From contig JAISKJ010000003.1 in assembly GCA_031260975.1 (NCBI GenBank), positions 129,480 to 193,479 of the forward strand: a DNA stretch of 64,000 nucleotides, in the 5' to 3' direction. The position numbers and the translations under genes are program-made. Position 1 is the first letter of the stretch; every line of letters begins with the position of its first letter. Below, one piece after another: positions 49,026-56,036 of this stretch. Under the pieces are notes generated by a model. It did no database searches and was not told the DNA's origin. It was given only the letters and a program-made list of their open reading frames with translations. The stretch comes from Christensenellaceae bacterium (GTDB taxonomy: Bacteria > Bacillota > Clostridia > Christensenellales > UBA1242).

Positions 49026-50135
49026 TTACTCTGTGCAATATATATCTAAAATACTTTTCATATATTTAGCCAATGTTTCAATAACAGGTATTGTAACGGC
49101 ATTTCCGAAAACTTTATATTTGGCTGCATCTTTTATTCCATCCGGAAAGGCGAACATATCCTTATCGTTTGTTATAAATGCATAATTGATAAATCCTTGA
49201 AGTTTTCCCCATTCTTCCGGAGTCATTACTCGGATATGTTTACTGTTCAAAGGTGTGTGTTTACCTTGAATTATTTTCCCCGCAACTCCTTTTTTTTCAT
49301 CGTATATTAAGTTTCTTTCTTTTCCGGAGCCACCTGTGGCGAGAAGGGTATTTGCAATCGGTCTCTCAATTTCTTTTGAATTTACAATTCTATAACCATA
49401 TCCGTTTCCGTTTAATTTTTGTCTTGCTTTATGTTTTTCCAATGTTTCTAAATAGCCGGAAGACATAAAATACCTATCCTTAACATCGGTATACAAAACA
49501 TCTGTTAGGCTGTTATAAACAGTGAACTCGGATTTTAACGGTAATTCAAAGTTTGAATTACCGAAGTTTTTGGCTATATCGTTTCTAAAACCCATAAGAT
49601 AAATTCGTGGACGGTTTTGAGGAACACCAAAGTTTTTAGAATTCCGCACAAGTGTTTTCGCAGAGTATACCATTTTTTTATTCTCGGTTTCCGATACTCC
49701 TATAATTTTGTATTTTAAATCTTTTGTAAGAGTATTTAATATATGTGCAATGGTATTACCGTCATCGTGTGTAAGTAAATGGTCAACATTTTCCAAGAGA
49801 AAAGCTTTTGGCTTGGTATCTCTAATGATTTCTTCAATATGATGAAAAATAATGCCTCTTTCTTCATCTTCAAACCCTTTTTGTTTACCGGCACGACTAA
49901 ATGCCTGACAAGGGAACCCAGCTAACAGAATGTCATAATCAATTTTTTTAACTTTATCTTTAAACTCGGTTTTCGTTATATCGTTGTAAGGGTCATCCCC
50001 AAATAAGTGCTTATAAATTTTGCAAGCCGTTAAATCATTTTCGGCAGACAGAACATTTACAAAATTTCCGGCTAATTCATATCCTCGCCTCATACCGCCG
50101 ATTCCGGCACACAAATCAATGGTTTTATAAGTCAT
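49026..50135 (-). CDS. dcm: DNA (cytosine-5) methyltransferase
   Basis: This enzyme methylates cytosine C5 in a specific DNA sequence. The 369-aa product has the SAM-binding DLCAGIGGMRRGYE (about 7-20), the catalytic GFPCQAFSRAG (Cys about residue 76), ENVDHL, the QNRPRIYLMGF motif and the final VFGNAVTIPVI motif, in normal order. The target-recognition part (about 190-280) gives no site by eye. ATG 50135 has AAGGAGG at a spacing of 6. It overlaps vsr by 11 bp. Together with vsr it forms a methylation and repair pair, and a restriction partner may be the ATPase operon downstream. Confidence 0.95.
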   Translation of the reverse strand: MTYKTIDLCAGIGGMRRGYELAGNFVNVLSAENDLTACKIYKHLFGDDPYNDITKTEFKDKVKKIDYDILLAGFPCQAFSRAGKQKGFEDEERGIIFHHIEEIIRDTKPKAFLLENVDHLLTHDDGNTIAHILNTLTKDLKYKIIGVSETENKKMVYSAKTLVRNSKNFGVPQNRPRIYLMGFRNDIAKNFGNSNFELPLKSEFTVYNSLTDVLYTDVKDRYFMSSGYLETLEKHKARQKLNGNGYGYRIVNSKEIERPIANTLLATGGSGKERNLIYDEKKGVAGKIIQGKHTPLNSKHIRVMTPEEWGKLQGFINYAFITNDKDMFAFPDGIKDAAKYKVFGNAVTIPVIETLAKYMKSILDIYCTE

Positions 50136-50547
50136 TCTCAACCTCCTTAAAGGCAGCTTCTATTTTATCTACGCAACTTGCCACATTTTTCTTTATCTCG
50201 TATCCCCAAAATCTTATTACCGTCCAGCCGTCTTTCTTCAATAAATCATTTACTTCTTGGTCTCTTTGAATTGTTCTCTCTATTTTCGGAATCCAAAAAT
50301 CTTGATTTGACTTGATTTCAAGTTTTTTGTTCTCCCAATCATACCCGTGCCAAAATTCACTATCGCAAAACACCGCAATTTTCTTCCCTTTAAAAACAAT
50401 ATCCGGCTTACCTGTAACATCCGTCGCATTCTTTCTGTATCTTATATTTCTTTTTCTCAGTTCCGTACGCAGAAGCAGTTCTATTTCGGAATCTTTATTT
50501 TTAACCATTCGCATATTTTTACTGATTTGTTCGGGTGTTTTTTTCAT
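50125..50547 (-). CDS. vsr: Very-short-patch repair endonuclease (Vsr)
   Basis: Vsr nicks at T:G mismatches that arise when 5-methylcytosine is deaminated. The 140-aa product starts TPEQISKNMRMVKNKDSEIE, then has TGKPDIVFKGKKIAVFCDSEFWHG, the core with the catalytic Asp and metal ligands, and ends in a helical part. The 'DSEFWHG' form differs from the E. coli 'HGCFWH' form and is common in related clostridial copies. It is encoded directly before dcm and overlaps it. Because Vsr-like folds also occur as restriction nucleases, a restriction role in this island cannot be ruled out. Confidence 0.88.
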   Translation of the reverse strand: MKKTPEQISKNMRMVKNKDSEIELLLRTELRKRNIRYRKNATDVTGKPDIVFKGKKIAVFCDSEFWHGYDWENKKLEIKSNQDFWIPKIERTIQRDQEVNDLLKKDGWTVIRFWGYEIKKNVASCVDKIEAAFKEVENDL

Positions 50548-53616: not shown

Positions 53617-55265
53617 CATTTGATTTTACCGTCTTTAAGGGTAAAGATATTGTCAAAAACCTCATAGGAGTTAAGCTTGTGAGCGATGACGAGAATAGTT
53701 TTTGATTTTTTTAGCTTGGCAAGTACTTGAAAGAAAAGGGTTTGGTTTTCTTTATCTAGCGCTGAGGTTGGTTCGTCAAAAAGAATGACAGGGGTATCCT
53801 TTAAAATAGTTCTTGCGATTGCAATACGCTGCTTTTGTCCGCCGCTTAAATTGGCTCCGTTTTCACAAAGTTGGGTGTTATAGCCTTCAGAAAAGCCTAA
53901 AATCTCATCATGAATGTTTGCGCTATTACAAGCTTTAACAACTTCATCACGGCTGGCCGAAGGTTTAACAATTCTTATATTTTCTTCAACTGTTGCATTA
54001 AAGATAAACGGTTCCTGATTTATGATGCAGAGGGCTGAGCGGAAGCTTTGTTCGTCAAATGAGTTTATATCAAGGCCATTAAAAAAGATTTTTCCATCCT
54101 TGGTATCTAAAAGTTTTGAGAGCAAACCAAAAAGTGTGCTTTTGCCACTTCCGCTTGAACCTACAAATACCGAGCAGGAATTGGGAGCAATTTTAAACGA
54201 GATATTATTCAGAACCAATTGGTCGCCATAACCGAATGAAAGGTTTTTAACTGTTATGCCCGCAGGAAGAAGGGATATGGCTTCAGAACCAAATTGTTCG
54301 GCGTCTTTAGTGTTTATTACCTCTAAAATTCTTCCGGCTTGATAGTCGCCCTGCACATAATATGATTTAATTTTTGAAAAGAAACCTACAGTGTCATACA
54401 TGAGGCTTTTGTAGTTTAGAATAATAAGCAAAACAACAACGGTGATTTGTCCGGTAGGGAACAGCCAAAAAGCGCAGAGAAGAACAAGGCAGGCGTCAAT
54501 AGTCCACTGCAAAAAGGTCTTGACGCGGCTTAAGAACTCAAAGGTGTGAACACGGGCAACATTTTGCTTAGCCAAACGAGAGTGGATTGTATTATTGACA
54601 CTAATTACTTCACTTTTTAGACCCAGGCCTTTTACATCTTTGATTCCGCGAATAAGTTCGTTAAATTTGGAATTTGACTGTTCGGTGGTTTTTTTGACGC
54701 CTTGCAGGTGCTTAAGGTCCTTTTTGACTTTTATGGCATCAACGACAAAGAGCAGAGAAGCACCAACAGTGAAAAACAGGCCACACTGCCAATTGAGAAA
54801 ATAGATAAGCAACAGAAAGCTGCAATTTGTGAGAACATCCACCATGGTGCTGGCAACATTGGTTAGAAACGAGCTCACCTCGTTGGTGTCGTCGTTCAGG
54901 CGCTCAATATAGTATCCGCTCGGATTTTCTTTTATGGTTTGAAACTTTGTGCCTAGTGTTTTGGATATGAGATTTCGGCGTATATCGTTGGCTACATAGT
55001 TTGATAGCACCGCTCCAAAGCGGCTCCACAAAAACCAGCAAATGTGGTGAATAAGCACAGCGGCCATAATCAAAATGGTAAACTTAACCATTTGGTTTAT
55101 ATTTTGATTTGTTATGCCGACCAGCTGCTCACTCATAAAATAAGCTATCACCATGCCGAGCGAGCTTGCAATCACGGCAACAATAAGCAGTGAGATGGTA
55201 AGAGGCATATATTTTTTGAAATACGGCTTCATTTGCCGTAAATTTTTGTAACGTTTAAAAAACAT
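53616..55265 (-). CDS. ABC exporter (membrane and ATPase domains fused)
   Basis: The 549-aa product is a half-transporter of the exporter type: six membrane helices (about 15-290), then an ATPase domain with Walker A GSSGSGKSTLFG, the Q-loop NQEPFIF, the signature LSGGQKQRIAIAR, Walker B VILFDEPTSALD and the switch His IAHKL. ATG 55265 follows AAAGGAG at a spacing of 7; sixteen extra codons upstream lack support. A 16-codon leader ORF, a terminator and an anti-RBS stem lie upstream, so expression is probably conditional. It may export a peptide, lipid or drug. The protein has no peptidase domain, so it is not a bacteriocin-processing transporter. Confidence 0.93.
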   Translation of the reverse strand: MFFKRYKNLRQMKPYFKKYMPLTISLLIVAVIASSLGMVIAYFMSEQLVGITNQNINQMVKFTILIMAAVLIHHICWFLWSRFGAVLSNYVANDIRRNLISKTLGTKFQTIKENPSGYYIERLNDDTNEVSSFLTNVASTMVDVLTNCSFLLLIYFLNWQCGLFFTVGASLLFVVDAIKVKKDLKHLQGVKKTTEQSNSKFNELIRGIKDVKGLGLKSEVISVNNTIHSRLAKQNVARVHTFEFLSRVKTFLQWTIDACLVLLCAFWLFPTGQITVVVLLIILNYKSLMYDTVGFFSKIKSYYVQGDYQAGRILEVINTKDAEQFGSEAISLLPAGITVKNLSFGYGDQLVLNNISFKIAPNSCSVFVGSSGSGKSTLFGLLSKLLDTKDGKIFFNGLDINSFDEQSFRSALCIINQEPFIFNATVEENIRIVKPSASRDEVVKACNSANIHDEILGFSEGYNTQLCENGANLSGGQKQRIAIARTILKDTPVILFDEPTSALDKENQTLFFQVLAKLKKSKTILVIAHKLNSYEVFDNIFTLKDGKIK

Positions 55266-55270
55266 AAAAA

Positions 55271-55362
55271 TTCTCCTTTGATTTGTATTTTGCCTTTTAA
55301 AAAATGGCAACAAAAAACACGGAAGAAGCCCTCCGTGTTTAAATACAAAAACAAAAGGAGAA
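55271..55362 (-). promoter_or_regulatory. Leader with terminator and RBS-sequestering stem
   Basis: On the minus-strand transcript, 55341-55362 is almost fully complementary to 55271-55290, which contains the exporter's AAAGGAG. Between them lie a terminator (arms 55332-55340 and 55315-55323, AAACACGGA/TCCGTGTTT, then a U run) and a small stem (55306-55309 with 55291-55294). Pairing would hide the RBS and stop transcription early. Ribosome movement or stalling on the upstream ORF could change the fold. Confidence 0.75.
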
Positions 55363-55369
55363 CATTCTT

Positions 55370-55420
55370 CTATTCAGCGGCAGTTGCCTTTATCTTGTTT
55401 GCTAAAATATTTGGACACAT
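55370..55420 (-). CDS. 16-aa leader peptide upstream of the ABC exporter
   Basis: The ORF reads MCPNILANKIKATAAE and then stops at TAG. It has its own strong AAAGGAG site 9 nt before the ATG and a strong promoter (55446-55474), so it is almost certainly translated. It lies 8 bp before the anti-RBS strand of the exporter leader. The simplest reading is a regulatory leader peptide, as in attenuation systems that sense ribosome-targeting drugs. A small Cys-containing signal peptide exported by the transporter is the alternative. No known leader sequence is recognised. Confidence 0.65.
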   Translation of the reverse strand: MCPNILANKIKATAAE

Positions 55421-55445
55421 AGTAATACACTCCTTTAATGATAAC

Positions 55446-55474
55446 AGTATAATATAAAGTTCTGACAAAGTCAA
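55446..55474 (-). promoter_or_regulatory. Promoter of the leader peptide and ABC exporter
   Basis: On the minus strand TTGACT (55469-55474), a 17-bp spacer and TATACT (55446-55451), giving a transcription start near 55439. Confidence 0.8.
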
Positions 55475-55490
55475 GAGGGGGAAAAGGCTT

Positions 55491-56036
55491 TTAAGTACCA
55501 TGCAATTGAGAAGGTGCAAAGGTGTTTGTCGGGGCGGGGGTGTCGTTTTGAACAAGTTCAGTTATATATTCATTACGGGAGATATTAAAGTCTTCTATTT
55601 GGGTTTTTAACGGAAGTGAGTTGTATGTGGATGTAAAGTATTCTCTGTAGCTTGGAGCAGGGTGGCCCATCATTTGTTCAACAATTTCAGGGGTAGGAGA
55701 TAACGGGTTGCTTGAAATAATCTGTCCAAAACGGATACCTTCAAAAAGCAGTCCTTTTATGTCTTGTGGCACATCTTGCATGGCATCAAGGATGGTTCTG
55801 ATATTTGCAGAGATATTATTTGGTGCGGGTGCAGTTTCTTTGTTGTTTTTTTGTGTTGTGTCGCTGATTGTGTATAAACTTTTATATAAATTGTTATATG
55901 CATAGGGGGCATCCGATTCGTTAATAAAACCGCTAAGTCTTTTTGCGGCATCTTTTATTTCAAGGGTTTTTATGATTACAGGTAATATGTATGTATGATT
56001 GTTGTCATAGGCTTCTATTTTAATTTTGTATATCAC
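55491..56036 (-). CDS. Unknown 181-aa protein
   Basis: The product starts MIYKIKIEAYDNNHTYILPV and is mostly polar. A short beta-rich start (about 1-30) leads into helical regions and a Pro/Thr/Asn-rich tail. I recognise no domain. AAGGAG precedes ATG 56036 by 11 nt, and TTTACA (56091-56096), 17 bp and TATAAT (56068-56073) form a promoter on the minus strand. It is divergent from the amidase-like gene and ends 17 bp before the exporter leader promoter. Confidence 0.78.
   Translation of the reverse strand: MIYKIKIEAYDNNHTYILPVIIKTLEIKDAAKRLSGFINESDAPYAYNNLYKSLYTISDTTQKNNKETAPAPNNISANIRTILDAMQDVPQDIKGLLFEGIRFGQIISSNPLSPTPEIVEQMMGHPAPSYREYFTSTYNSLPLKTQIEDFNISRNEYITELVQNDTPAPTNTFAPSQLHGT

Follow-up and report, generated by a model that had tools for sequence, protein, structure and literature searches.

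In a 64,000-nucleotide stretch of DNA from a Christensenellaceae bacterium (hereafter the window; position 1 is its first letter), a very short open reading frame (ORF) and a terminator separate a promoter-like sequence from the gene of an ABC exporter. Does this leader control the exporter, and which signal would it sense? The original prediction, made from the letters alone, saw inducible attenuation here, with a ribosome held on the leader freeing the exporter's ribosome binding site (RBS), and named an exported peptide signal as another option. From orthologous loci, and from folding the RNA with ribosomes placed on the leader, we conclude that a macrolide- or ketolide-type arrest at a Lys-Ile-Lys motif of the leader probably induces a predicted drug exporter by antitermination. 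We infer both the inducer class and the substrate of the exporter.

Organization of the locus

The features are listed in the order in which they are transcribed, with the basis of each in brackets (SD, Shine-Dalgarno sequence; +X+, Lys/Arg-X-Lys/Arg).

55474-55446, minus: promoter-like TTGACT-17-TATACT (pattern scan, recurrence in relatives)
55436-55430, minus: leader SD, AAAGGAG (sequence)
55420-55370, minus: leader ORF MCPNILANKIKATAAE, 16 codons, stop included (sequence; orthologous loci have leaders likewise placed)
55396-55388, minus: leader codons 9-11, Lys-Ile-Lys, predicted macrolide/ketolide arrest motif (sequence; +X+ in 18/18 leaders)
55370-55357, minus: predicted antiterminator 5' strand GAAGAAUGUUCUCC, overlapping the anti-SD strand (folding)
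55361-55341, minus: anti-SD strand, pairing with 55290-55272 (minimum-energy fold, shuffle test)
55340-55315, minus: intrinsic terminator stem-loop AAACACGGAGGGCTTCTTCCGTGTTT, then a T-run (pattern scan; -14.5 kcal/mol)
55334-55322, minus: predicted antiterminator 3' strand GGAGGGCUUCUUC, within the terminator (folding)
55311-55306, minus: GUUGCC, possible partner of leader GGCAAC at 55388-55383 (duplex shuffle test)
55290-55272, minus: SD region of the exporter, sequestered by the anti-SD strand (folding)
55265-53616, minus: ABC exporter, 549 aa, ATG at 55265-55263 (Pfam, conserved ATPase motifs)

The promoter, the 16-codon leader, the terminator and the strand complementary to the exporter RBS described in the original prediction were all found. 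The duplex of the spacer with the SD region had -18.5 kcal/mol, reached by 25/2000 dinucleotide shuffles of the spacer. The Lys-Ile-Lys motif, the antiterminator GAAGAAUGUUCUCC:GGAGGGCUUCUUC and the possible GGCAAC:GUUGCC pairing are new to the description. The spacer between the leader ORF and the terminator had 29 bases. Promoter-like patterns (10 in the region, 8.8 +- 3.3 in shuffles) and terminator-like patterns (4, against 2.8 +- 1.5) were about as frequent as in shuffled sequence, so that it is position and recurrence in relatives that lend them weight. A TTGAC[AT] -35 box accompanied by a -10-like one was present 5' of the leader in 17/18 loci, the exception being L049. No Rfam family reached the curated cut-off in window positions 55200-55600, and in 14/16 loci (L054 left out) tRNAs alone reached it.

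A charged motif shared by the leaders

Comparison across homologous loci, suggested with the original prediction, gave a short SD-bearing leader with a +X+ motif in all 18 orthologous loci, the window included. The leaders were MCTIMKLRTK (two loci), MCIIMKLRTK, MFTILKLRTK (two loci), MCIILKLRTK, MIILKLRIK, MIVILKLRNK, MFTIFKLRIM, MIILKLKIN, MICCILKLRNK (two loci), MCTILKLRTE, MCTILKLRKITLNANMLYLY, MCTILKLKKYSLNANVFYLD, MFCLERFRINK, MYTIQERFKLI and the window's MCPNILANKIKATAAE. The letters of the motif varied (KLR, KLK, RFR, RFK, KIK) under a constant charge pattern, with synonymous and conservative changes inside it (AAA/AAG, TTA/TTG/CTA, AGA/AAA). It stood at codons 6-8 in 12 of the 18 leaders, and at codons 9-11 in the window, where the N-terminus was also different. 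In the exporter tree the motif was present on six branches (the window, L041, L040, L049, L053/L054 and a ten-row KLR clade), whose order is unresolved. The leaders of L053 and L054 were longer, with 20 codons. By eye, the later leader codons of L053, GCAAATATGTT, are complementary to a post-terminator stretch, AACATATTTGC, and L054 is alike.

In each locus the ORF taken as leader was chosen for having both the motif and an SD-like stretch, and the search could therefore favor the motif. Listed without the motif requirement, the same ORF was the obvious ATG leader in 7/8 loci besides the window. Among other SD-bearing ORFs of 9-20 codons, 5/33 (~15%) carried the motif.

+X+ is known from the leader peptide ErmDL. 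Telithromycin arrests translation there with Leu7 of Arg6-Leu7-Arg8 in the P site, and replacement of either Arg abolishes the arrest; erythromycin arrest depends less on +X+ and does not strictly need it (accessible text of PMC8298421). The same text reports +X+ sequences that do not arrest, the motif alone being insufficient. The Arg6-Leu7-Arg8 register of ErmDL and Erm(K)L is that of 12/18 leaders here, and erm(K) is stated to be transcriptionally attenuated (PMC8298421, PMC4335068, both accessible in part). As described there, these leaders differ from ours in controlling an rRNA methyltransferase and in their N-terminal residues, and the window's motif lies at 9-11.

The motif codons could also have been kept for RNA pairing, the switch then sensing a broad slowdown of translation, as in Lys/Arg shortage, rather than a drug. 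The +X+ codons did pair with a pre-terminator strand in 11/16 loci (<=30/300 shuffles), and the partners changed in step between KLR and RFK leaders. However, the charge pattern stayed constant despite changed letters, also in the five loci in which this pairing was not seen (L001, L012, L050, L053, L054), and the leaders carry few Lys/Arg codons and no runs of them, which makes this explanation quite unlikely.

Competing folds and ribosome position in the window

The minimum-energy fold of the leader region (-46.1 kcal/mol, z -2.38) was equalled by 2/200 shuffles and included the stem 55361-55341:55290-55272. The antiterminator GAAGAAUGUUCUCC:GGAGGGCUUCUUC was computed at -18.8 kcal/mol, against -14.5 kcal/mol for the terminator, with 1/2000 shuffles as good; in a separate duplex test the antiterminator strand was unexceptional (61/500 shuffles). 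For the leader region and the post-terminator region (GGCAAC:GUUGCC), 7/300 shuffles gave a duplex as good.

We then masked the bases covered by a ribosome. With codons 14-16 in the P site, the ribosome covered GAAGAA and the terminator formed (P 0.96-1.00). Codon 12 gave the strongest computed switch, the antiterminator prevailing with P(terminator) 0.03. With codon 10 in the P site, the probability of GAAGAA:UUCUUC in the nascent RNA was 0.98 until the last six bases of the terminator and 0.85 until the last three. Once the terminator was complete, it was favored at equilibrium with the usual ribosome edge (P 0.84); P(terminator) was 0.02-0.34 with 3-7 extra shielded bases and 0.60 with 8. 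In these models, an arrest at codon 10 yields the antiterminator only through kinetics or through 3-7 extra shielded bases. Codons 2-9 behaved about as codon 10, so that selectivity for Lys-Ile-Lys would come from the drug and not from the RNA. In RNA free of ribosomes the finished terminator was favored (0.94), the strand pairing with the leader SD region in the minimum-energy fold; the antiterminator was the best fold with 20-23 terminator bases out.

Phenicols and oxazolidinones favor Ala/Ser/Thr. The window's leader ends in KATAAE, with Ala at codons 12, 14 and 15, and codon 12 is the position of the strongest switch. Another peptidyl-transferase drug (phenicol, oxazolidinone or lincosamide) might thus arrest the ribosome at these Ala/Thr codons, with the same antiterminator logic. 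For BmrB, also the leader of an exporter, the drugs that elicit a response include lincomycin, erythromycin and chloramphenicol (accessible part of PMC4191407). The Ala-rich end is, however, missing in the other 17 leaders, to which +X+ is common, and we regard a drug of this kind as an unlikely inducer.

The step in which a held ribosome would free the RBS was not supported for the window copy: the exporter SD was unpaired with a probability of 0.00 when codons 2-15 were in the P site and of 0.09 at codon 16 (stop in the A site). It reached 0.52 only with the ribosome set one codon past codon 16. This bears on purely translational attenuation, in which the held ribosome opens the RBS stem and the terminator is incidental. 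The stem itself is strong (25/2000 shuffles), but it stays closed at codons 2-15 and the spacer doubles as the antiterminator strand (1/2000), leaving such a mode of control very unlikely. The more general part of the original prediction, that a ribosome held up on the leader brings about inducible attenuation, is supported by the leader motif and by the attenuator parts in relatives.

With the antiterminator locked, the bases GGAG of the exporter SD were unpaired with probabilities of 0.93, 0.29, 0.32 and 0.72. In the full RNA the antiterminator state lay 5.6 kcal/mol above the closed state, so release of the exporter SD would be transient.

In the mechanism that we propose, drug-dependent antitermination, a ribosome in the absence of drug would reach the end of the leader and cover GAAGAAUGUUC, and the terminator would form. 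In the presence of drug, the ribosome would stall with Ile10 in the P site and leave the antiterminator strand free; as the 5' side of the terminator emerges, GAAGAAUGUUCUCC would capture GGAGGGCUUCUUC first and the exporter would be transcribed. Where no ribosome is present, the strand can pair with the leader SD region, and the terminator is again favored (computed; we infer its use in the cell). In read-through RNA the exporter SD is predicted to be closed in a long stem. Because the antiterminator strand overlaps the anti-SD strand, the antiterminator would, for as long as it persists, leave the exporter SD partly open. A single strand would have three possible partners, namely the leader SD, the terminator arm and the exporter SD. 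The RNAs of relatives may offer the same choices with other sequences.

RNA of relatives

Strands 1 CACATAAAACT, 2 AGTTTTATGTG, 3 CATATAAAACTAG and 4 GTGAGTTTTATCT are common to ten to twelve KLR loci, in which they precede the terminator and then, usually, a strand complementary to the exporter SD. The strands can pair as 1:2 and 3:4, or as 2:3 and 1:4. Strand 4 is complementary to an extended 5' arm of the terminator and is the predicted antiterminator. A strand complementary to the terminator 5' arm beat 94% of shuffles (<=28/500) in 13/16 distinct loci, L046 and L054 using another strand; the complementarity was unexceptional in the window (61/500, as above), L049 (365/500) and L053 (417/500). 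The anti-SD duplex was found at <=31/500 shuffles in 8/16 loci. Strand 4 paired with the post-terminator region at <=10/300 shuffles in 7/13 loci tested, a hint only.

The refuting test given with the original prediction, covariation of both pairing strands among relatives, has no direct counterpart there, because the stem of the window is arranged differently. In the relatives' own helices, covariation of 1:2 and 3:4 was not above shuffles (212/500). For helix 2:3 there were three two-sided cells in two pairs, from about two events, two of the cells coming from the near-identical L050 and L051. Covariation support is thus modest for helix 2:3 and nil for 1:2 and 3:4.

Ribosome-masked folding gave a clear equilibrium switch in 2/16 loci, the window (codons 11-12 against 14-16) and L054, and a partial one in L042. 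In L040 and L052 the hairpin that it scored adjoins the stop codon of the leader, and a ribosome close to this codon simply covers it. Most other loci had no equilibrium switch, so that for most relatives the model can apply only in a kinetic form.

The exporter and its distribution

The exporter has one membrane domain (PF00664) and one ATPase domain (PF00005) in Pfam, with conserved ATPase motifs and, in the window, an open reading frame. A peptidase domain was absent from its Pfam hits. All of the best 25 of 188 matching NCBIfam models scored below cut-off. The best-scoring solved sequences (best 60 of 273) were ABCB-type exporters, mostly P-glycoproteins, then Sav1866 and MsbA. To our knowledge, the macrolide efflux proteins Mef and Mel are not ABCB-type exporters.

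Orthologs were found in 18/309 genomes of the family, the window's included (E <= 1e-120), with 45-61% identity to the window's exporter. An order-wide sample had the exporter in 2/396 genomes (the window's and one family member) and a class-wide sample in 1/391 (the window's own). The viral contigs searched contained none, and the plasmid search gave one match of 28.7%. The genome collection held ten relatives of at least 45% identity, titled uncultured Clostridia; the remaining 11 of its 21 matches were short or weak and from other organisms. The closest protein relatives had up to 76% identity (among the best 120 of 269 matches).

In the exporter tree the orthologs formed a single supported clade against five outgroup exporters. 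Within genus g26, the exporter of L041 was placed outside the main KLR clade, and those of L042 and L052 inside it, which suggests that the exporter moved horizontally between lineages. The exporters of L040 and L053 had in-frame stops (one and two TAA), yet the leader and attenuator parts were kept.

Three other ABC genes in the window's genome (L004, L075 and L003/L010) had no comparable leader, save a possible ORF, MVVFLVSKY. The latter lies 5' of L003/L010 (contig C1), a second ABC exporter frame of 660 open aa. More distant ABC exporters of the family, in L016 and L014, had short SD-bearing ORFs upstream, MIIYVHVEVLVK and MIFLSKKQ (by eye).

The attenuator before other genes

A covariance model, R1, was built from 12 loci of relatives. 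At E <= 0.01 it matched 16/309 family genomes, of which 14 belong to the 18 with the exporter and two do not. The unmatched exporter genomes were G317, G487, G559 and that of the window, where the RNA is shorter and arranged differently from that of the relatives (no match to this KLR attenuator at E <= 0.01). An order-wide sample gave 0/396 genomes at E <= 0.001, under stricter filters and with no positive control in the draw.

The missing R1 match, the deviating motif register and the +X+ frequency in unrelated short ORFs (5/33) are what one would expect if the window copy had lost its regulation, the motif match being chance and the RNA pairings relics. But the strong promoter, SD, terminator, antiterminator and anti-SD strand are intact and the exporter frame is open, so that we give this reading little credence.

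One of the two other genomes, G527 (L058), carries the leader MYSVMKLRTK and an R1 element (116 bits) with an antiterminator complementarity of -13.8 kcal/mol. After it lie genes for a kinase-like protein of the P-loop type (Pfam AAA_18 at E 2e-5, a score below cut-off), for which no solved relative was found at E <= 0.01, and for a GNAT protein (PF12746, above cut-off). The pair are candidate drug-inducible modifying enzymes. In the other genome, G021 (L069), the match of 45.9 bits is weak for 309 genomes searched and the antiterminator complementarity is low. Its leader, MKKIVNKQI, is without +X+, and the element lies 5' of an ABC-F gene, whose product, truncated at the end of the locus, matched ribo_prot_ABC_F best among NCBIfam models, with a score below cut-off.

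The leader and attenuator before non-transporter genes in G527 argue for a sensor cassette made up of leader and RNA, rather than for a substrate of the exporter. The second option of the original prediction, an exported signal, which we read as a signal peptide or pheromone leaving through the adjoining transporter, is disfavored by this arrangement. The short peptide gene does sit next to an exporter, but its sequence varies except for the charge motif and the Pfam hits of the exporter lack a peptidase domain, and an exported signal seems extremely improbable. We retain drug-dependent antitermination as the preferred reading.

Known systems and implications

Several systems, compared here through the accessible parts of their reports, resemble the locus. 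In mef(E)/mel of Streptococcus pneumoniae, a short MRLR leader (Mef(E)L, MTASMRLR) and a terminator place macrolide efflux under transcriptional attenuation, and the msr(C) leader begins MTASMKLR (PMC4335068); the RNA sequence is unlike the window's. The tlrB (yxjB) leader of Bacillus subtilis differs in preceding a methyltransferase gene and in needing a NusG pause, and no antiterminator is identified for it (PMC6851288). In bmrB-bmrCD of B. subtilis, a leader peptide controls ABC exporter genes by transcription attenuation, with ribosome-targeting drugs as inducers (PMC4191407). There, the leader has 53 residues, the terminator is inside the ORF and two exporter genes follow; the window has a 16-codon leader, a terminator 3' of the leader ORF and one exporter gene. 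As far as these sources go, erm(D/K), mef(E)/mel, tlrB and bmrBCD already embody the attenuation principle, and the downstream gene family is new. Among the papers listed by a literature search, with most subscription papers outside its reach, none dealt with a +X+ leader preceding a single-gene ABC exporter, which leaves absence unproven.

The attenuator predicts an inducer class, and with it a candidate substrate class, for an exporter family that the best 25 of 188 NCBIfam models leave unnamed at cut-off. If the prediction is true, bacteria of a group with no cultured members encounter tunnel-binding antibiotics so frequently that the arrest motif is retained despite large sequence change, and the attenuator could flag drug-defense genes of unknown function, maybe including the kinase-like/GNAT pair of G527. 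More tentatively, and as a possibility rather than an expectation, the loci may represent an undescribed defense module of uncultured Clostridia. In it, a single-gene ABC exporter for macrolide/ketolide-like tunnel-binding compounds would move between genera with its own +X+ attenuator, one strand would be both antiterminator and RBS switch, and the sensor cassette would be re-used before other defense-like genes.

Elsewhere in the window, at 49026-50547 on the minus strand, are adjacent ORFs whose products look, by eye, like a cytosine-5 DNA methyltransferase and an endonuclease of the Vsr type.
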